NCBI GenBank assembly: GCA_023381615.1
Contig: JAMCQL010000042.1
Coordinates: 1 to 64,000 of the forward strand
Length of the DNA stretch: 64,000 nucleotides
Origin: Bacteroidota bacterium
Lineage (GTDB): Bacteria; Bacteroidota; Ignavibacteria; Kryptoniales; JAKASW01
Reading direction: 5' to 3'
The position numbers were made by a program, and so were the translations under genes. Positions 30,599 to 51,774 of the stretch are shown here, in pieces. The first letter of the stretch is position 1, and each line of letters opens with the position of its first letter. The notes below the pieces were generated by a model. The model had not been told where the DNA came from and did not search any database. It was given only the letters and a program-made list of their open reading frames with translations.

Positions 30599-30747
30599 TT
30601 TGTAATTCTCATCCAAATTGAGTGGAGCGGGATTGTGTGGGAGAGGAAAGCTATTGAGATGGGCGATCTCAAGGAAGGATTTGTCTTTTCCTCGCCTCTT
30701 ATGAACAAACATGCGCGCAGGAGAGTTTTCAAAAGGTGGAGGGCTGT

Positions 30748-31662
30748 ATGCGGGAGCGACAGTATTATTACAAAGCGGCGTATGAAAAGGCGTTGCTGGC
30801 AGCTCGTAGCAATGGAGCTGTTCTGATAGTTGGAGAAACAGGGGTTGGCAAAGAAGTTCTTGCAAGGTTTATTCATGAACGTCCAGTCAGGAGTGAGTCG
30901 GCATTCGTTCCTGTCAACTGCGCATCCATTTCGAGCACATTGTTTGAGAGTGAGCTGTTTGGGCACACTAAGGGCGCATATACAGGTGCCACAGAATCAG
31001 GGAAGGGGTTGGTTGAGACTGCGGATCATGGCACATTGTTTCTAGATGAAGTATCGGAGATTCCCACCAACCTGCAAGTAAAATTGCTTCGGGCACTCGA
31101 GACCAAGGAATTTTATCGAGTGGGTGATCCAGCAGCAAAGAAGGTTGATTTCCGGCTTATATGCGCATCCAATAGGCCGCTTGCGGAGTTGAGTGACGGT
31201 CAGTTTCTTAGAAAAGACTTTCTCTATCGGATAAATACTTTCATCATAGAAATACCTCCGCTTCGAGAGCAAAAGGAAATGATACCTGAGCTTGCAGCAT
31301 ATTTTCTTAGGGAAAACATGTCTCAAGCAAAGTTTTCTAAAGAGGCATTCGAACTTCTTTTGTGCTATCATTTTCCGGGGAACATTCGTGAATTGAGAAA
31401 TGCTGTCGATTATGCGATTACCGCGGCCGGTGAAGGCGCTTCGATCATTAATGTGGAACACCTTCCAAACACATTACTTGAGCACTGCGGCTTTGTGAAC
31501 AGAAAAGGGGCGGCGAAACTTAAAGATACATGGGCCTGTTTTGCCAGAGCATACATCAGTTACATTTTAAATGAACATGACGGAGACGTTGACAGAACAG
31601 CAGAAGAGTTGGGCGTATCGCGTGCCACAATATACCGCGCTATTAAAAAGGAAGCCAAATAG
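30748..31662 (+). CDS. Sigma54-dependent transcription activator, PspF-like
   Basis: A 304-aa bacterial enhancer-binding protein made of only an AAA+ domain and a Fis-type DNA-binding domain. Walker A GETGVGKE (residues 29-36), the sigma54-contacting loop GAYTGA (76-81; classic GAFTGA), Walker B LFLDEVSE, the arginine-finger region LRKDFLYRIN, sensor II FPGNIRELRN and C-terminal HTH VDRTAEELGVSRATIYRAI. There is no N-terminal sensor, so, as in PspF, control must come from a partner or from expression level. ATG 30748 is preferred over GTG 30736 because GGAGG (30738-30742) is five bases upstream. It directly precedes tandem palindromes and a -24/-12 promoter, so it most likely drives the following operon. 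Confidence 0.9.
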   Translation: MRERQYYYKAAYEKALLAARSNGAVLIVGETGVGKEVLARFIHERPVRSESAFVPVNCASISSTLFESELFGHTKGAYTGATESGKGLVETADHGTLFLDEVSEIPTNLQVKLLRALETKEFYRVGDPAAKKVDFRLICASNRPLAELSDGQFLRKDFLYRINTFIIEIPPLREQKEMIPELAAYFLRENMSQAKFSKEAFELLLCYHFPGNIRELRNAVDYAITAAGEGASIINVEHLPNTLLEHCGFVNRKGAAKLKDTWACFARAYISYILNEHDGDVDRTAEELGVSRATIYRAIKKEAK

Positions 31663-31697: not shown

Positions 31698-31745
31698 GTC
31701 TCAGTTTTGAGACGGAATTCTTGGCAAAAGTCTCAAGGCTGAGAA
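31698..31745 (+). promoter_or_regulatory. Tandem activator-binding palindromes (putative UAS)
   Basis: GTCTCA-GTTT-TGAGAC (31698-31713) and GTCTCA-AGGC-TGAGAA (31730-31745) are two copies of one palindrome, 32 bp apart centre to centre (three helical turns) and about 55-90 bp upstream of the -24/-12 element. This is the classic enhancer layout for a dimeric Fis-type activator; the neighbouring PspF-like protein is the obvious ligand. Confidence 0.65.
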
Positions 31746-31792: not shown

Positions 31793-31808
31793 TGGCACAG
31801 TGATTGTT
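31793..31808 (+). promoter_or_regulatory. Sigma54 (-24/-12) promoter of the peptide operon
   Basis: TGGCAC (31793-31798), five bases, then TTGTT (31804-31808) gives GG-N10-GT against the consensus GG-N10-GC. The -24 half is perfect. It lies 50 bp before ATG 31859 and downstream of the tandem palindromes, so position and context agree. Confidence 0.6.
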
Positions 31809-31858: not shown

Positions 31859-32089
31859 ATGCGAACATCAAGTTATATCATATACGTGAAACTTCTGGAA
31901 TCGAAGGAGTACTTGCTGGTGCATGGTTACACAGGGGCGATTGATTTGCTGAAACCAAATGTTATGGTTGTTTTACGGTCAGAAAAGCTGGTGGGAGGAA
32001 TGATGGCTGTGAAGGAGCATGAAGTTCCGACAACTACAGTCTTTTTGTGTGGTTATAGAAAAGGCCTATGCCTGAGATCTTGTCCCTAA
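31859..32089 (+). CDS. 76-aa ORF resembling the N-terminus of radical SAM/SPASM peptide maturases
   Basis: First gene after the sigma54 promoter, with AAGGG just before ATG 31859. Residues 5-30 (SYIIYVKLLESKEYLLVHG, then YTGAIDLL) recall the leader-peptide-recognising N-terminus of some radical SAM/SPASM maturases, but the protein stops at 76 residues without a CxxxCxxC cluster. The tail has three Cys in FLCGYRKGLCLRSC. It overlaps the next gene by 22 bp in another frame, so no radical SAM domain follows. It may be a stand-alone recognition element or a remnant of a lost maturase. The resemblance is from memory and unverified. Confidence 0.45.
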   Translation: MRTSSYIIYVKLLESKEYLLVHGYTGAIDLLKPNVMVVLRSEKLVGGMMAVKEHEVPTTTVFLCGYRKGLCLRSCP

Positions 32090-34026
32090 GGGATCCATTC
32101 GGAAACGATTTCACGGGGAAGGGAGCGACTGTCGCTTTGCACCCTGTTGCTGGAGACCAACAGGGTCTTTATCGGGATGTGTACCGTTACTTTGCGCCGG
32201 TATTCCCGGATATCCCTCCTGACGTGCTTGAGAGAATCTCCGATGCGAGCTATGACTATTTCCAATGCTTATTGGCTTATGATCAAGTGATAGACAATCC
32301 TCAGGATGAGCGAGCTGGTGAGCACACCATCGCAGGATTCGTCTTTCATGAAAGAGCGGTCAAAGCACTTGCCTCGATTTTTCCCCATAGCAGCAATTTC
32401 TGGATCGACTTTGATTGCATCAAGGACGAATACTTCAGTGCAATCGAAATGGAGAAGAACGCCGCCTCTGGCAACGTTGAATTCAATGAGGAGTATTTTG
32501 CAAAGCTTGCGAGAAGGAAGTCCATATTTTGCCTGGCAGCGGTAAGTGCACTGAGCCACCTGAGTGGAGATTTTAAGTATCAACAAATATTAGGCGACTC
32601 TATTATCAGCTTGCATGTAGGTTTTCAAATATTTGATGATATCGACGACTTTAAAAGTGATCTTACTATCGGCCAGAGGAGCTACGTCTCTTTTCTGGTT
32701 GATCGCTTCATTGATGAAAATTCGCTGGGTGTAGGTGCGGCAGACATTCTTGCGAAGCACAAGCTCTTGTTCATCTCAGGCATAGCCGCGCAGCAACTTC
32801 AGAAGGCGAGATCCTATTTTGAAAGCAGCTACAATTATGTCGCTGACCTGCCGTTGGCGGAATATAAGGGTGTCATTCTTGAAAACGCCAGAAAAGCCGA
32901 CAGACTGATCTGGGAAATTCAACAAAGCCTGATCAAGACAGAAAGCAAGCTGCGCCTCAGCAACAAGAAGCTGAACGATGGAGAGGCTGTGGTCTTGTCC
33001 GGTCAGTCGATAATGAATGCGATTTCTCAGGGAGTTGATTTTCTGCGCTCACAGCTCAACACTGACAATCTGTGGAGTGATTTCCTGACCAGTGCAGGAG
33101 AGAGCACGATATGGGTAACCTCGTATGCGGGATACATGCTCTCTGACGTGGAGATTTCGCCCCCTTGGTTGATAGGAGCGTACGAAAAATTATGTGCACG
33201 GGTGGAGAAAGGGGTTTCATTCAACGAACAAATGGTGCAAGACGGTGATTCCACGAGTTTCTACGTTGGGTTTTCTGCCCTCGTGAAAAGAGAGGTGAGC
33301 GACATTTCCATGCAAATGTGGCTGCGACACCAGACCGAGGAAGGCGGATGGACAACATATAGAGATCCCGATGCACTGCGTGTCAAGCTCGGTTTGCCAC
33401 ACGATTCCAATGTTACGGGATGGACCCAACCCCACGTGTGCGTAAGCGCTGCGGCCGCTATGATGGCTGCGCGTTGCTGCAATCTATCGGGGCACATTTT
33501 CGAGAAAACCGTACGATTCCTTTTGGAAAGCCAATTGGAGAGCGGAGAATGGAAATCGTATTGGTGGACATCAGATATCTATGCCACATCATTTGCATTG
33601 CAAGCCATTTGTGGAAGTGGCATGCAGCGTCAACATAACGATATTGGAAAGGCCTGCTCTTGGTTGACCAGTCAACAAACCAACGATGGTTCGTGGAAGA
33701 ATCCTGCAACTGGCAGTCCATGTCCATTCTACACGGCGTTAGCGATGAAAGCTTTATTGGTCACCAATTCGCTCAAATATCATCACGAGATTTCTAAAAC
33801 CGCTAAATGGTTGCTGGCAAATCAGATGTCCGATGGCAGTTGGCGATCAAAACACATACTGCGGATTCCGTCGCCTCAAATTGTAAATCCTGAAGAAGTA
33901 AAAGTGTGGCGTAAAAGTTCATTCGGTGTAAATACTCTGGTCGACAGCCACCGGCGCATTTTCACAACTGCGACCGTTGTCAACTGCCTTAAGTCATACA
34001 TGATCAGTCTGCAGGAAAGCAAATAA
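32068..34026 (+). CDS. Fusion of a prenyl-diphosphate-synthase-like domain and a terpene-cyclase/prenyltransferase toroid
   Basis: A 652-aa protein with two recognisable halves. Residues 1-300: trans-isoprenyl diphosphate synthase fold; the first Asp motif reads DQVID (72-76, against DDVVD in the ordinary synthase encoded at 50803) and the second is intact, FQIFDDIDDFKSD (Asp190, 191, 194). Residues about 315-650: an alpha/alpha toroid with four QW motifs, QTEEGGW (422), QLESGEW (489), QTNDGSW (537) and QMSDGSW (586), and a DGDST sequence (392-396) at the place of the class II cyclase DxDD. The toroid fold is shared by terpene cyclases, protein prenyltransferase beta subunits and LanC. AAGG precedes ATG 32068, and the stop is next to the M50 start. 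Possible roles: make a prenyl diphosphate and cyclise it, or transfer it to the neighbouring peptide. Neither is proven. Confidence 0.75.
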   Translation: MPEILSLRDPFGNDFTGKGATVALHPVAGDQQGLYRDVYRYFAPVFPDIPPDVLERISDASYDYFQCLLAYDQVIDNPQDERAGEHTIAGFVFHERAVKALASIFPHSSNFWIDFDCIKDEYFSAIEMEKNAASGNVEFNEEYFAKLARRKSIFCLAAVSALSHLSGDFKYQQILGDSIISLHVGFQIFDDIDDFKSDLTIGQRSYVSFLVDRFIDENSLGVGAADILAKHKLLFISGIAAQQLQKARSYFESSYNYVADLPLAEYKGVILENARKADRLIWEIQQSLIKTESKLRLSNKKLNDGEAVVLSGQSIMNAISQGVDFLRSQLNTDNLWSDFLTSAGESTIWVTSYAGYMLSDVEISPPWLIGAYEKLCARVEKGVSFNEQMVQDGDSTSFYVGFSALVKREVSDISMQMWLRHQTEEGGWTTYRDPDALRVKLGLPHDSNVTGWTQPHVCVSAAAAMMAARCCNLSGHIFEKTVRFLLESQLESGEWKSYWWTSDIYATSFALQAICGSGMQRQHNDIGKACSWLTSQQTNDGSWKNPATGSPCPFYTALAMKALLVTNSLKYHHEISKTAKWLLANQMSDGSWRSKHILRIPSPQIVNPEEVKVWRKSSFGVNTLVDSHRRIFTTATVVNCLKSYMISLQESK

Positions 34027-35240
34027 TGGTTTTACTTGACGACATTGCCATATCGAACTTCGATGAGAATCGGAAGTTGATAGTTTCGGGGGATAGGCAT
34101 TTTCTTGCAAACAAAATGACGGCCGACTTAATTCAAAGCCTTCAAACTGCGGCGACAAAGGAAGAGGCACGTAAGATTTTCTGCAGCAAACAAGATTTTA
34201 CTCTTTCGGCTGAAGAGTTTGAACGTGTGATTGCGGAAAAACTAGGACGATTCGGATTGACAGGAGATAATAACGTCTCAGCAAATCAGAGAAGGCAGCA
34301 ATACTTAAAGTTGAAAGTTCGAGTTCTCTCGCGAGAGGTTGCAGCGTACATCGCAAGGTGGTTTTCTTTTCTGTTTGGTTACGGGGTATTCTGGCCACTG
34401 TTTGCCATTGCAATTCTTATAAGTGTCGTGAACTTTGTGTTCTTCACGGGGGGAGAAATTAAGGCTGGCGGCATTGTTGTCTCCTTCTTATTGTTTGGTC
34501 TCTCAACTGCATTTCATGAAATAGGGCATGTCGCCGCTTGCCGCCATTTCGGTGGAAAGCATGGAGGAATGGGATTTGGGTTTTACATCATTTGGCCAGT
34601 TGCGTATTCGGAACTTACAGGAATATGGGCACTCCGAAAAGGTCAGAGGACGGTTGTCAATCTTGCGGGGATTTACATGCAACTTCTTTATACTGCTGCT
34701 CTGGTCGGTGGAGGATTGGGCACGGGTCTTCAAGAGTTAAATCTTGCGGCCACTGCAATCACTCTAAGTGCTGTCTTACAATTGAATCCTTTTCTTCGCA
34801 TGGATGGATACTGGGTTTTGTGCGACTTGATTGGACAGCCGAACTTGATGTCAAAAGCTTCTATGGCAGTAAAGGATTTATTCCTTTCCATTTACCGTTC
34901 CGCAGTCAGAACTGCAGTGCCAGATCAGAAGCAAGGGAAAGAGCGAAGCGTGTTAATACTTCTGTATGGTATTGCAAATATGAGCGTGGGTTTGATTTTG
35001 ATGGTTTTGATATACGTGAACTACACGGAGAGCATAGTGCGCTTTCCCGAGAAGACTTTAACGATTATCCAGAGTATTGTGCACAGCAACCTTATTTTTC
35101 AGGATCTGACGGTCCCGTACCTGACCGCTTTCACCTTCTATGTTTTGTTGGTATTACAATTGAAATCAGCGCTCTCAGCGATAATAAAAAATCAGCCCTT
35201 GCTTTTCTCAAAGCTGGAGAGGAAAATAAGGGACAAATGA
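34026..35240 (+). CDS. M50-type membrane metallopeptidase with PqqD-like N-terminal domain
   Basis: A 404-aa protein. Residues 1-85 form a small soluble domain (SNFDENRKLIVSGDRHFLAN then LSAEEFERVIAEKL) that looks like the PqqD/RRE winged helix used to recognise leader peptides. About seven membrane segments follow. The zinc motif HEIGH is at 164-168 and the third ligand motif NPFLRMDGYW at 254-263 (Asp260). This matches the putative peptide zinc metalloprotease family found with ribosomal peptides, which may cut or export the leader. Its start overlaps the fusion enzyme stop (position 34026), and the precursor-like gene begins 30 bp after its stop. Confidence 0.8.
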   Translation: MVLLDDIAISNFDENRKLIVSGDRHFLANKMTADLIQSLQTAATKEEARKIFCSKQDFTLSAEEFERVIAEKLGRFGLTGDNNVSANQRRQQYLKLKVRVLSREVAAYIARWFSFLFGYGVFWPLFAIAILISVVNFVFFTGGEIKAGGIVVSFLLFGLSTAFHEIGHVAACRHFGGKHGGMGFGFYIIWPVAYSELTGIWALRKGQRTVVNLAGIYMQLLYTAALVGGGLGTGLQELNLAATAITLSAVLQLNPFLRMDGYWVLCDLIGQPNLMSKASMAVKDLFLSIYRSAVRTAVPDQKQGKERSVLILLYGIANMSVGLILMVLIYVNYTESIVRFPEKTLTIIQSIVHSNLIFQDLTVPYLTAFTFYVLLVLQLKSALSAIIKNQPLLFSKLERKIRDK

Positions 35241-35270
35241 AAATCCGGCACAAAACCAATGGAGGTTATT

Positions 35271-35432
35271 ATGGAAACATTACAAAGGAACGAAATTGAA
35301 CAACTTCTCGACAACTTTGAAGTCGAAGAACTCGAAGACAGGATGGAGTTCACCACCTGGGGTGCATCTGCGTCGTGCACCTGCGGTCCCAATGGCTGCA
35401 CAGTGACGGTTGGCGTAACTTGCACGCTCTGA
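35271..35432 (+). CDS. 53-aa Cys/Thr-rich peptide, candidate RiPP precursor
   Basis: A short gene with a strong GGAGG (35261-35265) five bases before ATG 35271. Residues 1-27 are acidic and helical (METLQRNEIEQLLDNFEV, then EELEDRMEF), a leader-like segment; residues 28-53 switch to a core with seven Thr, two Ser and four Cys (TTWGASASCTCGPNGC, then TVTVGVTCTL), Cys at 36, 38, 43 and 51. The acidic leader next to a Gly-Ala-Ser-Cys-rich core resembles lanthipeptide and thiopeptide precursors, yet no LanB, LanM, LanC or YcaO enzyme is in the window. It sits between a PqqD-M50 peptidase and a surface protein gene. There is no Gly-Gly cleavage site. It was found by reading the gap directly and is below the length of most gene calls. 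Confidence 0.75.
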   Translation: METLQRNEIEQLLDNFEVEELEDRMEFTTWGASASCTCGPNGCTVTVGVTCTL

Positions 35433-35503: not shown

Positions 35504-36799
35504 ATGAAAACCTTAGTCGCATTCATTTTATTAGCAAACGCTGTTGTCTATTCACAAGCAAATGGAATTAAAGGACTAATAAGGGATGCAGAAACTCATG
35601 CGCCGTTGCCTTATGCAAACATTCAATTAGCCAAAACGCCGCTTGGTACTGCGTCAAATCTTGACGGTGAATTTCTGTTGAGGGTCTCTTCCTTCCCAGT
35701 TCAGATCATCGTCAGTTACGTTGGTTATCAAACGAATACCATACAGGTTGAGGAAAAGGATGCGAGCAAAATAATCGAAATTTCCCTAAAAAGAGCTGAG
35801 ATTGTTTTTCCTGAAGTAACGGTATCTGCCAGCGATACATTTGCCATTAATTTGGTTAAAAGGGTTTACGAAAAGATCACTGACAATGAAGACAGGGTGA
35901 TAAACGGCGATGGATTTTACAGACAATATCTTAAAGTCGATTCCCAATACTCAGAAATAATGGAGATGTTTCTTAGCACACTGTTGAACAGCAGAGGGAT
36001 TCTCAAAAGCGGTGTGGAAAATGGGAGATATGCACGCTTGAAGAGGGCTAAAGGCGACACCGTTTTGCCATTCTATCTTACCAATATGTCATACTTCAGT
36101 ACAGTTACATTCAAATCTAGTCAGCACAAGGATCCCTTTTTCAGTTTCTTGCCATTTGTTCATAAACCGGGTTTGTATGTTCCACTAAGACCAAACGCAG
36201 ACGAGTATTATTACTTAAAAACGGATGGATTTTACAGGACAGATGATGGGGAAAAAGTTGCAATAATAACATTTACCCCAAAGATCGACTTGGACCGGCC
36301 CACCTTCAGCGGAAGTATGGAAATCGAGGTCAACAACTCTCGACTCTTGCGCATAAATGAGAAGCTCGATGGTCTGCGACACAACCTGGTCCCTTGGCCG
36401 TCCTTTATGGGTTATTATGTGAGAGATAGCATACTGTCTTTCAGGGCTGATTTCAAAGATGTAAGCAATGGCAACTTCTACTTGGACCGTCTTGAAACGC
36501 GATACGAATTCATGGAGCGAAATGAAAAAGATCCATCTTTTAACAGACAGTATTCATTCGTTTCTTTCCTGACATTTTACGACTATCCAGAGAAAGCTAA
36601 CACTTCCAAGCTAGAGGACTCAAATCAGGAATGGGACATAAATAAGGTGATAAACGCAGGCTACAACCCGGACTTTTGGAAAAAGCACCAAGACGTCATC
36701 AACGAAATTCCAATCGAAGAGAGCATCAGAGAGTCATTCATCAAGCATGGTTTCTACGGGAATCTATTTCCAGGAGGGGAGCCATTAAATGAAAAGTAA
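35504..36799 (+). CDS. CarboxypepD_reg-like domain surface protein
   Basis: A 431-aa exported protein with signal peptide MKTLVAFILLANAVVYSQA and an N-terminal carboxypeptidase regulatory-like domain (residues 22-105: GLIRDAETHAPLPYANIQLA, LDGEFLLRV, VSYVGYQT). The rest (110-431) is a beta-rich domain as in DUF5686-type Bacteroidota outer-membrane proteins but without a complete barrel. AGGAG precedes the ATG. The next gene overlaps by 11 bp. In the island it could be a receptor, carrier or immunity factor for the peptide product; this is inference. Confidence 0.65.
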   Translation: MKTLVAFILLANAVVYSQANGIKGLIRDAETHAPLPYANIQLAKTPLGTASNLDGEFLLRVSSFPVQIIVSYVGYQTNTIQVEEKDASKIIEISLKRAEIVFPEVTVSASDTFAINLVKRVYEKITDNEDRVINGDGFYRQYLKVDSQYSEIMEMFLSTLLNSRGILKSGVENGRYARLKRAKGDTVLPFYLTNMSYFSTVTFKSSQHKDPFFSFLPFVHKPGLYVPLRPNADEYYYLKTDGFYRTDDGEKVAIITFTPKIDLDRPTFSGSMEIEVNNSRLLRINEKLDGLRHNLVPWPSFMGYYVRDSILSFRADFKDVSNGNFYLDRLETRYEFMERNEKDPSFNRQYSFVSFLTFYDYPEKANTSKLEDSNQEWDINKVINAGYNPDFWKKHQDVINEIPIEESIRESFIKHGFYGNLFPGGEPLNEK

Positions 36800-37712
36800 G
36801 ACATTACTTCAGTACATTCTTGCCATATTGATTGGCGGTTTCTTTATAATATCCGGCGTGGGAAAGATACTCAACGTCGGACAATTGATAGAGACGATTC
36901 AGAATTACGGTGTTCCACCGTTTCTAGCTCCCGCCGCAATCTTTCTTCCACCTCTGGAAATAATTCTTGGCATTCTCATTATTATGCCTGCCACAAGGAA
37001 GGCCGCGAGCGGTGTTGTGCTCATGCTTCTCCTTATATTCACAGGAGCCTATCTGTATGCGCACTTCTTTAGAGGTGTTCAGGGTTGCGGCTGCTCGGGA
37101 GAGTTTTCTTTCTTGGATATGAATCTACCTGAATTGCTCGTTCGGAATGCGGTTCTCTTCGTGATGGCATTGGCTGTCTTCAGGATCTCTGGAAGCGTAA
37201 AGACATCTTTGCTTCGCTGGCAGAAAGCATTGGTGTTTGTAGTCGCTGTCCTCTCGTCGACCGCAGCCGGTGCATCTTCTGTAGAACCGCTTGTGCAAGG
37301 CAAAGACAAATGGATTGGTGAGGATATTTACTCAACATCATTATCGCATATTATTTCTACGAACAGAGATTCTACATATCTGCTATTTTTTTACAATATG
37401 GATTGCCCGCACTGCTGGGACGCAATCGAAAATGTCAAAGCTCTCCAACGCAAGAATGTTGTTGATAAAGTTGTTGGCTGCAGTTTCGGGAACGATGCAA
37501 GTCTTTCGAGATTTGAAAGCTATTTTCATCCTAACTTTGAAACGAAACTGCTTCCGGTGGAGGAACTAAGGACAATCACGCGTTCAGTGCCTCTTGCCTT
37601 GCTCGTGCGGCGGGATACGATTATGTATGCAGAACAGGGTAAGGTATCTTCTCCGCTAATCTACCAGAAATATGTTTTGAAAAAGGGCGGTGACATCCAT
37701 ATACCCTTTTGA
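36789..37712 (+). CDS. MauE/DoxX-like membrane protein fused to a thioredoxin-like domain
   Basis: A 307-aa protein. Residues 1-160 carry four to five membrane helices of the MauE/DoxX type (LLQYILAILIGGFFIISGVG, LEIILGILIIMPA) with a GCGCSG loop at about 99-104. Residues 175-307 are a periplasmic thioredoxin-like domain with CPHC (Cys206-Cys209) after LLFFYNMD. MauE proteins help form disulfides during maturation of amine dehydrogenase and occur near Cys-rich peptides. The fused redox motif suggests electron transfer through the membrane to set the Cys state of the product. Overlaps the preceding gene by 11 bp; an IS end begins 20 bp after the stop. Confidence 0.75.
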   Translation: MKSKTLLQYILAILIGGFFIISGVGKILNVGQLIETIQNYGVPPFLAPAAIFLPPLEIILGILIIMPATRKAASGVVLMLLLIFTGAYLYAHFFRGVQGCGCSGEFSFLDMNLPELLVRNAVLFVMALAVFRISGSVKTSLLRWQKALVFVVAVLSSTAAGASSVEPLVQGKDKWIGEDIYSTSLSHIISTNRDSTYLLFFYNMDCPHCWDAIENVKALQRKNVVDKVVGCSFGNDASLSRFESYFHPNFETKLLPVEELRTITRSVPLALLVRRDTIMYAEQGKVSSPLIYQKYVLKKGGDIHIPF

Positions 37713-37864: not shown

Positions 37865-38827
37865 TTGAAATTTCCGATAGTCTCTCAAGACTCTTTGAGA
37901 CCCTTGACAGACGTTCTCCGGATCCTTTACAGAATGCCAGTATTATATACGATCTCATTTGTAATCGTAGCGTTTCATATATACTTTTATATATACTTTC
38001 AAAAACCTGTTGTTCATATCGGTTCGATTGCAGGTCCAGGTTTTATATTCGTTTACGCACTGCTTTCCCTTACCTCTTTCTTTCATGAGCTTGGACATTC
38101 TTCAGCCTGTCATTACTTTGGAGCTAAGCATGGCGATATCGGAATTGGGCTCTATCTATACTTCGTTGTGTTCTATGCCGATGTGACAGATGTGTGGAAG
38201 CTAAAAAGGATTGACAGGGCAACCGTGGATTTCGGAGGGATATACTTTCAGTTAATCTGTGTTTTGGTTCTGTTCACCATTTACGTGCTCTGGAGAGACG
38301 TGCTCATGGTAGAGGCCATATATGCAGTAGATTTTGCCGTAATAGCCTCGATGAATCCCTTTTTCCGCTTTGATGGCTATTGGGTTGTGTCGGATCTTTC
38401 CGGCGTATCCAACCTCCGCCAGAGATCGCAACAAATTGTCAAATATATTTTTGGAAAACTCAGAGGGAGAATCAGTGTCCCTCCGCCATCACTTCCAATT
38501 GAAAGCAAGGCGAAGTACTTCCTTGGTTTCTATTCCTTAGTAAGCAATTTGTTTTTTGGTTTTTTCATATACAGCATTTTCTTTTCGTTCCCGAGTCTTA
38601 TCTCCTCATACTCATCAATTGCCGGAAACTCGATAGTCGGTATCGTGCACGCAATAGGAGTATTGGATTTTTGGGGCGTCCTCCATAATCTATCGGTGAT
38701 TTTCTTCCCAACTGTCATGGTACTGATGATCGGAATGATGTTTTATAGAGGAATAAAAGCGATTGTGAAATATTTCATAAAAGTTACTCATCACTTACCA
38801 TCAACAAAGTTCTCTTTTACGAAATGA
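37865..38827 (+). CDS. Second M50-type membrane metallopeptidase, without PqqD domain
   Basis: A 320-aa membrane protein with HELGH (residues 74-78), NPFFRFDGYW with the third ligand, and about six membrane segments. It is a paralogue of the M50 encoded at 34026 (both share SxCxYFGAKHGDxG-like and RFDGYW/RMDGYW motifs), but the soluble N-terminal PqqD-like part is absent. The frame has no ATG before residue 24 (37934); TTG 37865 is the first possible start and lies five bases behind the stranded IS end, so the original N-terminus may have been cut off by the IS event. The gene ends 10 bp before the first receptor gene. Confidence 0.72.
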   Translation: MKFPIVSQDSLRPLTDVLRILYRMPVLYTISFVIVAFHIYFYIYFQKPVVHIGSIAGPGFIFVYALLSLTSFFHELGHSSACHYFGAKHGDIGIGLYLYFVVFYADVTDVWKLKRIDRATVDFGGIYFQLICVLVLFTIYVLWRDVLMVEAIYAVDFAVIASMNPFFRFDGYWVVSDLSGVSNLRQRSQQIVKYIFGKLRGRISVPPPSLPIESKAKYFLGFYSLVSNLFFGFFIYSIFFSFPSLISSYSSIAGNSIVGIVHAIGVLDFWGVLHNLSVIFFPTVMVLMIGMMFYRGIKAIVKYFIKVTHHLPSTKFSFTK

Positions 38828-38837
38828 GTTGATTGCA

Positions 38838-41099
38838 GTGAGATTATTTATCCTCTTCGTATTAGTGGTTGTCAACGCTGGGAGTGTCATTGCCCAACAG
38901 AACGGACTGGGGAGGATTGAGGGGGTGGTTACCGATGCGGAAACCGGGAAGGCAATTGAAGGGGCCACAGTTATACTTGTGGGAACCGGCATGGGTATTT
39001 CTACAAAATCTGACGGCACTTTTTCGCTTGACAAGGTACCCAGTGGAGTTTACGACATTTCCTGTGGTTGTGTTGGATACGAAACCGTCAAGGAGAGGAG
39101 TGAGGAGGTTCACGGGGGTGCAAGTATAATGTTTAGGTTTAGACTGACCCCGGAGCCAATTCGGATGAGTGAAGTTCTTGTTTCACCAAGTAGTTTTTCG
39201 TTTTCTGCCAGTAAAGGGTTCACCTACCAAATGTCATTCCAGGAATTAAAGAAATTGCCTAATCCTACCGACGACATTTTTCGCAGTGTTCAAGTCCTCG
39301 CTGGGGTGACGACAGATAATCTTAACGCGCAATTCAGCGTTCGTGGGCAAGACTTCCAGGACATGTTGACTTTGATAGATGGCTTGGAAATCTACGAGCC
39401 GTTCCATTTGAAGAATCCAATGGGGGGAGACTTTCAGTTCAATGGGGGGGTGGGCATTGTTGGTCAGAATATGGTCAAGAGTGTGGATCTTTCTTTGGGT
39501 GGTTTCCCGGCGCGTTATGGGAACAAGGACGCGGGGGTTTTCAATATCATCACGAAGGACCCCCAGGGGGACACCTTGCATGGAAGCGTTAATCTTGATT
39601 TCACCACTTCTGCCTTGACGTTACAGAAGACTTTCGGAAATCAAGGATTCTTTCTCTCTGCAAGAAGAGGCAACTACGATATTCTCATGAAATTATTAGG
39701 CTATGGGACTAATGGGGTTCCTGACTATTATGATCTCTTTGCAAAATACGTGTACCGTCCAAGTGAAGAGGATAATTTTTTTGTTGACTTCCTGCATTCG
39801 AGTGATAACTTAACCTTTCAGGACTCTTACCAGCCTAGCATTACAGCGCAGTGGATAAGTGACTACAATAATTATCTGTGGGCCGCGTGGAATCACAGGA
39901 ACGGAAGATTCTCTGACCAGACGATTCTTTTTGGAACATTGACTCCTTCACAGTATATCTGGAATGAAAACGAGCCGCCTGGAACCAATTTTGGCAACGA
40001 AGGGGAGAAATCATATACTTTCGGCCTAAAGAGCAATCTTACCTTTGATGTGACGGAAACCAGTTCGTTGGAAGCGGGGGTAGAGTTGAGAAGGGCTGCT
40101 AACAGGGGAACTTTCTTTCGTGTTGCTCAAGACACTCTGTATTATCCAACAGGAACCGACACGGTTCAAGCCGGCTTGAATATTCTTGGCTACGACTTAG
40201 GTTCCTATGTCCTTTACAAATTTGGCGCTTTAGATAATTTTGCGACTCTCGATTGCGGTTTGCGCTTTGATTATCAGAGTTACATCAAACGTGGAAACAA
40301 GCAGCTAAGCCCGCGTTTAGCTCTTGCGCTTAGGCTTCCTTTCAGAACAACAGTGAGACTTGCATACGGTGACTACTATGAACCTCCGGATGTCACCAAC
40401 CTGGAATCGCTTACTCCGGATCTTAGAATATCCAGTGCTGTGCATTATATCATTGGACTGGACAACAATTTTCTAAAGGGCACGAACATACGTCTTGAGG
40501 CATATTATAAGCGGCTGTCCCCAAGTGCAGATTCGATTTATTCGTACTCGAGGTTTTTTCCTCTAAGCTATGGTTATTCTCAGGGAGTCGATTTGATAAT
40601 TCAATACAATGCTTCACCGTTGACAATATGGGTGAACTATTCTTACGGACTAGCGAAGGACGTGGCAACCAATGGAATGCAGTTCTATCGTGACATGGAC
40701 AGGAGGGACTTTTTTTCAGTTGTGGGAGACTATCAGATTGGAAGCTGGGACTTCAGCATTGTTGGGCGGTATATGACAGGATTACCTTACACATATTTCT
40801 ATTGGACAAAAACAAAGAAGGGAAATCAATACTACTGGGTGGAGGGAAGCGGTCATCAGTACAACGGTGCGCGAACGGATTCATATAGCGATATAGACAT
40901 TCGTGCAAGCAAGTGGTTTCACTTGCCATACGGAAAATTGCTGGTCAAACTTGAGATCATGAACCTGCTTAATTCGAGGAGCCTGTACGAACAACGCTGG
41001 GACTGGGTCAGCGATGGCGTCGGAGGATTCATGCCGGTCCAGGATAACTTCTACACACTCCCCCTCATCCCTTCGTTCGGAATTCGTTGGGAATTTTAG
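38838..41099 (+). CDS. TonB-dependent receptor with CarboxypepD_reg domain, copy 1
   Basis: A 753-aa outer-membrane receptor: signal peptide (VRLFILFVLVVVNAGSVIAQ), CarboxypepD_reg-like domain (about 22-105, GRIEGVVTDAETGKAIEGAT), plug domain (LPNPTDDIFRSVQVLAGV, FSVRGQDFQDMLTLIDG) and a barrel ending in aromatic IRWEF. It takes up a substrate with energy from TonB. GTG 38838 is chosen because the copy downstream starts at the same GTGAGATTAT position. No SusD partner is present. A natural role in the island is uptake or surface binding of the peptide product or its ligand. Confidence 0.85.
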   Translation: MRLFILFVLVVVNAGSVIAQQNGLGRIEGVVTDAETGKAIEGATVILVGTGMGISTKSDGTFSLDKVPSGVYDISCGCVGYETVKERSEEVHGGASIMFRFRLTPEPIRMSEVLVSPSSFSFSASKGFTYQMSFQELKKLPNPTDDIFRSVQVLAGVTTDNLNAQFSVRGQDFQDMLTLIDGLEIYEPFHLKNPMGGDFQFNGGVGIVGQNMVKSVDLSLGGFPARYGNKDAGVFNIITKDPQGDTLHGSVNLDFTTSALTLQKTFGNQGFFLSARRGNYDILMKLLGYGTNGVPDYYDLFAKYVYRPSEEDNFFVDFLHSSDNLTFQDSYQPSITAQWISDYNNYLWAAWNHRNGRFSDQTILFGTLTPSQYIWNENEPPGTNFGNEGEKSYTFGLKSNLTFDVTETSSLEAGVELRRAANRGTFFRVAQDTLYYPTGTDTVQAGLNILGYDLGSYVLYKFGALDNFATLDCGLRFDYQSYIKRGNKQLSPRLALALRLPFRTTVRLAYGDYYEPPDVTNLESLTPDLRISSAVHYIIGLDNNFLKGTNIRLEAYYKRLSPSADSIYSYSRFFPLSYGYSQGVDLIIQYNASPLTIWVNYSYGLAKDVATNGMQFYRDMDRRDFFSVVGDYQIGSWDFSIVGRYMTGLPYTYFYWTKTKKGNQYYWVEGSGHQYNGARTDSYSDIDIRASKWFHLPYGKLLVKLEIMNLLNSRSLYEQRWDWVSDGVGGFMPVQDNFYTLPLIPSFGIRWEF

Positions 41100-41264: not shown

Positions 41265-43517
41265 GTGAGATTATCTTTTTTGTTTATCATAGCGATGCTG
41301 AATGCAGTGACCGTTTTTTGTCAAGAGAGTAAGCTGGGAAAAATTGAGGGGGAGGTTGTCGATGCAGAGACGGGTCACCCAATTGAGGGGTCCACTGTCG
41401 TGCTTGTGGGGACCCGCTTAGGTGCTTCCACAAAATCAGATGGCACTTTCTCAATTCAATTAATACCAACAGGAGTATACGATGTTTCTTGCAGTGCTGT
41501 CGGACACGAAACCGTCATCAAAAAGCGGGTAGAAGTCAGCGATAGCACACCTGTGAGCCTTGAATTCAAACTAACGCCGCGACCAATTCGTATGAGTGAA
41601 GTAGTTGTTTCCCCCAGCAGTTTTTCGTTTTCTACAGGTAGAGAGTTCACACATCAAATGTCATTCCAAGAATTGAAGATGCTACCCAATCCTACCGATG
41701 ACATTTTTCGTAGTGTGCAAGTCCTCGCAGGAGTATCGTCAGACAATCTAAACGCACAATTCAGCGTGCGAGGGGCTGATTTAGGTGAAATGTTAACCGT
41801 TATCGATGGTATTGAAGTTTATGATCCATTCCACATGAAGCGACCCTTTGGTGCCGACCTTCAAATGGATGGCGCCATTAGCATAATAAATCCCGAATTG
41901 GTTGAGAGCGCTGACTTGTCACTTGGTGGTTTCTCTGCGCGTTATGGTAACAAGGATGCGGGGGTTTTTGTGATCAACATGATGGATCCGAGAGGCGACA
42001 GTTTGCATGGGAATCTCAATCTTGATCTCGCCACTTTCGGGTTAACGCTAGCGAAGACTTTCGGAAATCAGGGATTCCTTGTCTCTGCGCGAAGAGGAAA
42101 TTTTGATATGCTCATGAAACTGTTAGGCTATGGAACTAACGGCATTCCTTCCTACTACGATTTTTTTGCCAAATATGTCTACCAACCGAGCAGCACCGAC
42201 AAAATCTTTCTCGATGTACTGCATTCGCAGGACAATATGAAATTGTGGGACTACGATACTGGCATTCCGAACACATGGATAAATAATTACGTTACCTACG
42301 CGTGGGCGGGATGGAAACATACAGGGGAGAGCTTTGCGAGCCAAACCTATCTTTTCGGCTCAGTTGTCCCCTCGAATTTCGATTGGAACAACAGCGAGTC
42401 GTATGGAGTCAAACTTGGCAATGAACAAGAAGTCTCGTACGCGGTGGGATTAAAGAGTGACTTCCAATTTGACCTTTCTGAAAATACTTTGTTAGAGGCG
42501 GGTATTGAAGCAAGAAGATCCAGAAACACACTCACCTATTTCCAAAGCATCCAGGATACATCCTACGTCCCACCTGAATACGACACCGCGAGGACAAACC
42601 TATTAATATCAGGCTATGACTTTAGCTTGTACCTTCTCTACAAGTTTGGTCTTTTCAGCGGCCTCGCATCCTTTGACTTCGGACTGCGGTTCGATTACCA
42701 AAGCTACATTCAAACCGGAAACGAACAGGTGAGTCCTCGTATCGGTGCGGCCTTCAAGTTTCCCCTCAAGACAATCCTGAGGCTCGCCTATGGAAGTTAT
42801 TATCAACCTCCCGATGTCACGAATTTGGAGTCACTTAATCCAGATTTGAAGGTCGCGGAGGCTACTCACTACGTAATCGGATTTGACAATAGTTGGTTTA
42901 AGGACATTAACATACGGCTCGAAGGATACTATAAACGCCTGTCGCCAAGTTCGGACTCAATTTATTCCTACTTAAATTACTTCCACTTAAAATATGGTTT
43001 CTCTCAAGGAGTGGATTTGATTGTTCGGTACAATATTTCGCCGTTCACATTCTGGGGGAATTATTCCTATGGCATTTCGAAAGATGTGTCGGCAGAAGGA
43101 ATTGAGTTCTATCGCGACATGGATAGACGGCAATCCTTCTCATTTGTTGGCAACTATGAATCAGGGGACTGGAATTTCAGCGCGGTGGTGCGTTACACCA
43201 CGGGTTTGCCATATACTTCTTCTTATTGGATATTTTCAAAGGTGTCTGATGGATATCGTTGGATCTATGGGAGCAGCGAGTACAATGTAGTGCGAGCCGA
43301 TCCATTCAGTGAAGTAGATGTCCGAGTGACAAAAACCTTTGCCATGCCTTATGGAAGACTGCTGGTGAAGCTTGAGATCATGAACTTACTCAATTCAAGG
43401 AGCCTTTTTGAGCAGCGCTGGACTTGGAGTAAGACCGACGGAGGAGTTATTCCTGTTAAGGATAATTTCTACACGCTTCCGCTCATTCCATCATTTGGGG
43501 TTCGTTGGGAGTTCTAG
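41265..43517 (+). CDS. TonB-dependent receptor with CarboxypepD_reg domain, copy 2
   Basis: A 750-aa receptor, clear paralogue of the preceding gene along its full length: same domains (signal peptide, GKIEGEVVDAETGHPIEGST, plug LPNPTDDIFRSVQVLAGV, C-terminal GVRWEF). The GTG start has the same upstream sequence as copy 1, including about 40 bp that match the 3' end of the second M50 gene, so the gene arose by tandem duplication in place. Divergence is greatest in the extracellular-loop regions, consistent with different ligands or selection. The next gene, glgA, begins about 230 bp later. Confidence 0.85.
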   Translation: MRLSFLFIIAMLNAVTVFCQESKLGKIEGEVVDAETGHPIEGSTVVLVGTRLGASTKSDGTFSIQLIPTGVYDVSCSAVGHETVIKKRVEVSDSTPVSLEFKLTPRPIRMSEVVVSPSSFSFSTGREFTHQMSFQELKMLPNPTDDIFRSVQVLAGVSSDNLNAQFSVRGADLGEMLTVIDGIEVYDPFHMKRPFGADLQMDGAISIINPELVESADLSLGGFSARYGNKDAGVFVINMMDPRGDSLHGNLNLDLATFGLTLAKTFGNQGFLVSARRGNFDMLMKLLGYGTNGIPSYYDFFAKYVYQPSSTDKIFLDVLHSQDNMKLWDYDTGIPNTWINNYVTYAWAGWKHTGESFASQTYLFGSVVPSNFDWNNSESYGVKLGNEQEVSYAVGLKSDFQFDLSENTLLEAGIEARRSRNTLTYFQSIQDTSYVPPEYDTARTNLLISGYDFSLYLLYKFGLFSGLASFDFGLRFDYQSYIQTGNEQVSPRIGAAFKFPLKTILRLAYGSYYQPPDVTNLESLNPDLKVAEATHYVIGFDNSWFKDINIRLEGYYKRLSPSSDSIYSYLNYFHLKYGFSQGVDLIVRYNISPFTFWGNYSYGISKDVSAEGIEFYRDMDRRQSFSFVGNYESGDWNFSAVVRYTTGLPYTSSYWIFSKVSDGYRWIYGSSEYNVVRADPFSEVDVRVTKTFAMPYGRLLVKLEIMNLLNSRSLFEQRWTWSKTDGGVIPVKDNFYTLPLIPSFGVRWEF

Positions 43518-50802: not shown

Positions 50803-51774
50803 TTGGATTTAAATGAAATAATTCTGCCGATAAAGGAGCAGATCAAGCTTTTCGATGCTGAATTCAAATCAGCTATTCGTTCGAACATCGGACTTGTAGA
50901 TATAATAGCGCGTTATATCCTTCGACAAAAAGGAAAAAAAATCCGCCCAATCCTTGTTTTGCTTTCGGCGAAAGCAAGCGGCGGAATTAATAAGAGCACT
51001 TATCGCGCGGCTGCACTTGTCGAGCTGCTGCACACGGCGACTTTGATCCACGATGATGTGGTCGATAACGCGGACACTCGACGTGGATTAGCCTCGATCA
51101 ACGCGGCATGGAAAAACAAGATTGCCGTTCTGATGGGAGATTATCTCCTCTCGCGCGGACTTCTGCTTTCGCTGCTTAATGGTGAATTCGAATTTTTGAA
51201 GGTGAGTTCGGTTGCCGTGAAACGAATGAGCGAGGGCGAGCTTTTGCAAATTCAGAAATCACGACAACTTGATATGGACGAAGAAACCTACTTCAAAATA
51301 ATTTCCGATAAGACCGCGTCTCTTATTTCAACATGCTGCGAACTCGGCGCGGTAAGCGCCACGAAGGACGAAGGAATTGTGGCTCATCTCAGAAATTTCG
51401 GAGAATACCTCGGAATGGCTTTCCAGATTCGCGATGATGTCCTTGATTACGAAGGCAAGAAAGCCACTTTGGGGAAGCCGATTGGGGGCGACATACGCGA
51501 GAGAAAAGTTACTCTTCCGTTGATTTATGCATTTGAAAACGCACCCAAGCAAACAGGGAAATCTGTGCTCAGACTCTTGAAGAACGGCAAACGCGGTTCG
51601 AGAATAGATGAGGTTATTAAGTTTGCAGAAACGTATGGCGGCATAGGAAAAGCTCACGAGAAAGCCGAAGATTTTATTTTGCGAGCGAGGGATGAACTCA
51701 ACGACATCGAAAACTCTGATGCGAAAGAATCGCTCCTCAAGCTCACCGAATTTGTCGTGGATCGGGTAAACTGA
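50803..51774 (+). CDS. Polyprenyl diphosphate synthase
   Basis: A 323-aa trans-prenyltransferase with both aspartate motifs intact: LIHDDVVDNADTRRG (about 83-97) and FQIRDDVLDYEGKKATLGK (about 208-226). It extends isopentenyl units for quinone side chains; bulky residues before the first motif suggest a long-chain product. TTG 50803 is the start. It is the orthodox counterpart against which the altered DQVID motif of the island fusion enzyme (32068) stands out. Confidence 0.9.
   Translation: MDLNEIILPIKEQIKLFDAEFKSAIRSNIGLVDIIARYILRQKGKKIRPILVLLSAKASGGINKSTYRAAALVELLHTATLIHDDVVDNADTRRGLASINAAWKNKIAVLMGDYLLSRGLLLSLLNGEFEFLKVSSVAVKRMSEGELLQIQKSRQLDMDEETYFKIISDKTASLISTCCELGAVSATKDEGIVAHLRNFGEYLGMAFQIRDDVLDYEGKKATLGKPIGGDIRERKVTLPLIYAFENAPKQTGKSVLRLLKNGKRGSRIDEVIKFAETYGGIGKAHEKAEDFILRARDELNDIENSDAKESLLKLTEFVVDRVN

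Follow-up and report, generated by a model that had tools for sequence, protein, structure and literature searches.

A short gene downstream of an RRE–M50 protease gene

The open reading frame (ORF) at 35271–35432 of the window, by which we mean the whole 64,000-nucleotide stretch of DNA analysed, lies on the forward strand, as do the other genes and sites of the cluster. It runs from an ATG at 35271 to a TGA at 35432 and encodes a peptide of 53 residues (METLQRNEIEQLLDNFEVEELEDRMEFTTWGASASCTCGPNGCTVTVGVTCTL). A Shine–Dalgarno sequence, GGAGG, is found at 35261–35265, 5 nt 5′ of the ATG; an M50 protease gene ends at 35240, 30 nt 5′ of the ATG, and the downstream gene starts at 35504, 71 nt past the ORF. 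The ORF is present in one copy in the whole genome. Its length alone is unremarkable, the window holding 1,895 open frames of at least 20 codons. Residues 1–27 form an acidic leader with a motif, FEVEELEDRMEF, at residues 16–27. The core (residues 28–53) contains four cysteines (Cys36, Cys38, Cys43 and Cys51), seven threonines, two serines and a single tryptophan, Trp30, which is the candidate acceptor residue. The original prediction, made from this DNA alone, had described a 53-residue gene with a strong GGAGG and an abrupt change from acidic leader to Cys/Thr-rich core, and both the ORF with its ribosome-binding site and the composition are as it claimed. We consider the 53-codon ORF confirmed as a real gene, and sequence comparisons support reading it as a RiPP precursor.

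The preceding gene (34026–35240) encodes a PqqD-like RRE domain (residues ~1–76) fused to an M50/S2P intramembrane metalloprotease with the motif HEIGH at residues 164–168. Its predicted structure (pLDDT 88) has a beta-beta-beta-alpha-alpha-alpha domain at residues 7–76. Foldseek matched this domain to the lasso-peptide RRE TbiB1 (5v1u; probability 1.00) and to PqqD (5sxy; probability 0.84), with E-values of only 0.05–0.5; a PqqD/RRE winged-helix domain of this kind is the criterion for an RRE-containing RiPP protein. The membrane domain matched SpoIVFB with high probability and a weak E-value. Fold comparison thus backs the earlier placement of the peptide gene after a PqqD–M50 gene, although at the sequence level the N-terminal domain matched nothing in the family libraries. 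Both histidines and the glutamate of HExxH are invariant in 31 M50 homologues. Given the RRE-like fold and the invariant HExxH, the modelled protein probably both binds the leader and cleaves the precursor, and the pairing of this leader with an RRE–M50 protein thereby predicts a function for an M50 intramembrane protease.

Downstream of the precursor gene, 35504–36799 encodes an exported protein with a CarbopepD_reg domain, a homologue of which likewise lies 3′ of the precursor in Pedobacter (L042 and L043). Domain matches identified the next product (36789–37712) as a MauE/DoxX membrane domain joined to a thioredoxin-like CxxC domain, which we propose as the redox partner of the Cys core; it is carried by only three related loci, a number too small to judge it as a marker of Cys-rich cores. 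Domain matches also revealed a second M50 metalloprotease, without an RRE domain (37865–38827), and a TonB-dependent receptor with CarbopepD_reg and plug domains (38829–41099), for which we infer a role in export, uptake or immunity. A second TonB-dependent receptor (41265–43517) is 61% identical to the first. The Pedobacter jejuensis locus (L042) has the window order of M50, precursor, CarbopepD_reg protein and MauE–thioredoxin genes, followed there by an IPP isomerase gene.

Upstream lies a gene for a sigma-54 activator (30736–31662) with AAA+ and Fis-type HTH domains, in which no receiver domain was found; it is the probable regulator of the cluster. Adjoining this gene, at 31698–31745, is a tandem pair of dyads, GTCTCA-N4-TGAGA(C), with a spacing of 32 bp, which resemble binding sites and are candidates for those of the activator. 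Two such dyads were found against 0.11 expected, and the pattern occurs at four positions in the genome. A candidate sigma-54 −24/−12 promoter, TGGCACAGTGATTGTT, precedes the operon at 31793–31808, but matches arose in 25 of 100 shuffled sequences too. Regulation of the operon by this activator is plausible.

A conserved leader joined to variable cores

Homologues of the window M50 protein turned up in 17 of the 297 genomes of the phylum sample, and 80 named loci were retained from the genome collection, where a scan with a single M50 sequence yielded nothing and an alignment query recovered loci. The leader pattern F-x-V-E-E-L-E-x-R-x-E was found in about 60 short ORFs adjoining homologues of the window precursor's neighbours, in dozens of genomes that are mainly Bacteroidota. 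Because the window peptide itself served as the seed for the search motif, these counts are not a blind discovery, and we made two controls that limit the resulting bias. The first was a leader profile built from 51 leader segments, all from other genomes and none from the window. When this profile was compared with the 1,895 window ORFs, the precursor was the sole significant match (E-value of 7e-6; next best, 0.61). The second control concerned strand and distance: of the 3,111 small ORFs lying on the same strand as an M50 homologue and no more than 5.5 kb from it, 67 had the motif, compared with 1 of the 1,962 at greater distances and 2 of the 6,314 on the opposite strand.

Alignment of 20 precursors (the window peptide and 19 relatives) revealed that M1, L21, E22, R24, E26 and W30 (window numbering) are invariant, whereas the other core positions vary freely. 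The leader is therefore strongly conserved across homologous loci and the cores differ, which bears out the proposal of a leader-plus-core peptide gene. What that proposal overlooked is that, in this alignment, the invariant core feature is Trp30 and not the Cys/Thr content; the number of cysteines varies across the family and is zero in the cores of many relatives. Pfam and NCBIfam gave no convincing family match for any of the 20 precursors, and a protein search of plasmids with the window peptide alone gave no match. Such genes can escape gene callers and are not covered by these libraries. The leader signature together with the conserved acceptor tryptophan offers a direct route to them, with dozens of candidates, mostly in Bacteroidota. 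In two loci, L021 (5319–6364) and L065, six precursors with a common leader and differing cores are arranged in arrays, that of L065 being split into two and four.

A predicted prenyltransferase–cyclase encoded upstream

The enzyme that explains the conserved tryptophan was likewise overlooked in the original prediction. It is encoded at 32068–34026, two genes upstream of the precursor, and is a predicted bifunctional prenyltransferase–cyclase of 652 residues, with a trans-IDS-like N-terminal (P) domain and an MstE-like monodomain terpene cyclase at its C terminus. The C-terminal half matched MstE and 8paj with E-values of about 1e-29, and the predicted structure matched MstE (6sbb) with an E-value of 2.5e-12; D394 aligns with MstE D109, a position taken from the D109N entry 6sbe. 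The N-terminal half carries the motifs D72-x3-D76 (FARM), Q187 and DDIDD at residues 190–194 (SARM; D190, D191 and D194). In fold it resembled prenyl diphosphate synthases only modestly (4lob; E-value of 1.5e-3, TMt 0.62; model pLDDT 72), and against Pfam it stayed below threshold (E-value of 0.13), being too diverged.

This architecture is that of ChrPC (Hubrich et al. 2024, Chem 10:3224), in which, according to PMC13290415, a P domain of trans-IDS-like type prenylates an internal tryptophan of the precursor and is fused to a cyclase that cyclises the chain. The same source gives as a class criterion a glutamine just upstream of the second Asp-rich motif, with a proposed contact to the acceptor indole. 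The window enzyme has both Asp-rich motifs and this glutamine (D72, D76, Q187, D190, D191 and D194) as well as an intact class II catalytic acid (D394), and a precursor with a leader and a core tryptophan is encoded nearby. The two systems are thus alike, as far as ChrPC is described there, in fusing a trans-IDS-like prenyltransferase (here recognised only from its motifs and a fold match of moderate strength) to an MstE-like cyclase and in having an internal tryptophan of a ribosomal precursor as acceptor (here the predicted Trp30). Because every testable feature of the ChrPC type was found, we assign the window system to this kind; it is very probably a further member of the ChrPC-type terpenoid RiPPs, ChrPC having been compared by description only. 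Our main reading is accordingly that the 53-residue peptide is a RiPP precursor destined for modification with a terpenoid, with a probability of roughly 0.82, and the product is likely to be a Cys-rich peptide bearing a polycyclic terpene on Trp30.

Among 37 full-length homologues of the enzyme, D72, D76, D190, D191, D194, D392 and D394 are invariant and Q187 is kept in 34. This invariance bears on an alternative that we consider unlikely, in which Trp30 is prenylated but the cyclase-like domain does no more than bind the substrate as a scaffold, leaving on the peptide a ComX-like prenyl group, linear or indoline-fused. ComQ and PalQ do act alone (PMC13290415), and three loci (L025, L099 and L113) have a P domain without a full cyclase; but a scaffold would require neither D392 nor D394, the latter at the position of the MstE catalytic acid, and both are present in all 37 sequences.

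In a tree of the enzymes, that of the window groups with those of Pedobacter panaciterrae and an uncultured Hymenobacter (support 99/95), in whose loci the precursor likewise lies 3′ of the M50 gene, and not with the Chryseobacterium homologue of L046. Two deep clades differ at the cyclase motif, with DxDS in 23 sequences and DxDD in 14. IPP isomerase is present in three related clusters (L042, L062 and L069), which points to isoprenoid supply. At 50905–51609 the window also encodes a polyprenyl diphosphate synthase of housekeeping type. The genome has two such synthases, and this one is a possible source of the prenyl donor.

The core tryptophan tracks the enzyme

Where both enzyme domains are present, all 43 motif-bearing precursors (30 of 30 loci) have a core tryptophan, usually 2–6 residues past the leader, compared with only 3 of 12 peptides (3 of 8 loci) where the enzyme is absent. 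Fisher's exact test by locus puts this association at about 1 in 10,000, with the reservation that related loci are not fully independent. One of the three enzyme-free loci with a tryptophan, L042 of Pedobacter jejuensis, keeps a fragment of the enzyme gene: at L042:9679–10008, only the 3′ end of a prenyltransferase–cyclase gene remains, behind an unrelated response-regulator gene, with the precursor and downstream genes intact. No motif-bearing peptide was found in the enzyme-bearing loci L047, L052, L053, L063, L075 and L088. The three loci whose enzymes lack Q187 (L022, L046 and L078) are those in which the precursor tryptophan lies near the C terminus and not just past the leader, which fits a contact between Q187 and the acceptor indole.

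That the family conserves tryptophan and not cysteine also argues against a conventional Cys/Thr-directed RiPP, such as a lanthipeptide, a thiazole/oxazole peptide or a thiopeptide-like product. The core, with its four Cys, seven Thr and two Ser, would suit such chemistry, and a YcaO locus elsewhere (L028) has a related leader motif; however, among the genes that we scanned between 30736 and 43517, none had a LanB/C/M, YcaO or radical SAM domain, and we rejected lanthipeptide and azole assignments for want of a Lan synthetase or YcaO among these cluster genes, leaving this alternative quite improbable. Least probable of all is that the enzyme produces a free terpene, the peptide being the unrelated product of another modification: both domains resemble small-molecule prenyl synthases and cyclases, but the core tryptophan follows the presence of the enzyme, MstE itself cyclises a prenyl chain on an aromatic ring, and the enzyme gene lies immediately 5′ of the RRE–M50 and precursor genes in the window, L043 and L044.

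Relation to known systems and a proposed pathway

Prenylation of precursor tryptophans has precedent in ChrPC, ComQ and PalQ (PMC13290415 and PMC10853753). NctPC is, like the window enzyme, a prenyltransferase–cyclase fusion, which transfers a C20 group to tryptophan and then cyclises it, but its P domain has, according to PMC13290415, an ABBA-barrel fold, unlike the trans-IDS-like domain here. The ComQ/ComX and PalQ/PalX systems share trans-IDS-like tryptophan prenylation of a ribosomal precursor and are without the cyclase domain that the window enzyme has; the second Asp-rich motif, missing from ComQ, is moreover intact (DDIDD) in the window enzyme. We rejected a ComQXP quorum system on account of the fused cyclase and the intact DDIDD, and because no histidine kinase was found among the genes scanned. 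MstE resembles the window cyclase in its monodomain class II fold and its catalytic Asp, but acts on a prenylated benzoate, whereas the window cyclase is fused to a prenyltransferase. The HExxH proteases of daptide and epipeptide (YydH/LiaK) clusters (NF041824 and NF058609) are likewise M50 metalloproteases in RiPP clusters; the window M50 falls far below the curated cut-offs, and the precursors differ. With 96 bits from the daptide HExxH protease model against a cut-off of 300, a daptide was rejected. Besides the enzyme, the window cluster includes a Cys-rich core, RRE–M50, MauE–Trx and TonB receptors. Peptides with cyclised terpenes have been described only recently, with few examples.

The precursor family, the tryptophan–enzyme association, the domain architecture, the catalytic residues and the conserved gene order are established at the level of sequence, and the terpenoid reading suggests the following pathway. 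The sigma-54 activator would turn the operon on, and the leader helix (residues 10–27) would be bound by the RRE of the M50 protein, by the modifying enzyme or by both. By analogy with characterised relatives, the trans-IDS-like domain would move a prenyl group, perhaps of C10–C20, onto Trp30, and the MstE-like domain would then protonate the chain through D394 and cyclise it to a polycyclic terpene. The terpene might tether the peptide to the inner membrane, and the RRE–M50 protease would remove the leader there. The MauE–thioredoxin protein could then make disulfides among the four core cysteines, and the TonB-dependent receptors could handle the product at the outer membrane.

Related leaders beside other enzymes

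A broader reading, which we offer tentatively and think less likely than not, is that one leader motif, read by one RRE–M50 protease, is common to clusters with different modifying enzymes, namely the prenyltransferase–cyclase in its two cyclase clades, the P domain alone with Cys-rich cores, and YcaO. In the terpene branch, the terpene would bring the peptide to the membrane protease that releases it, and on the window peptide Cys-based bridges would accompany the polycyclic terpene of Trp30. We know of no described RiPP that combines a polycyclic terpene on tryptophan with such bridges.

The YcaO locus L028 (G062:C115:3000-22000) encodes two precursors with the related leader VEQFEDR and Cys/Thr/Gly-rich cores, together with YcaO, an M50 protein and a nitroreductase; azole chemistry has apparently reused the leader/M50 module there. 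In L025, L099 and L113, the precursors beside the P-domain genes are very rich in cysteine, with as many as 11 residues, and some have no tryptophan; the acceptor is possibly cysteine. L027 has an M50 homologue with a radical SAM gene, and no leader-motif peptide was seen there. The Chryseobacterium locus L046 contains the prenyltransferase–cyclase and M50 genes, what by eye are radical SAM and P450 genes, and two near-identical precursors ending in KICW. The cluster of L024/L061 (PAAX01000017), on a contig binned as Ignavibacteriae, is nearly identical to that of Allomuricauda, likely through recent transfer or a binning error.
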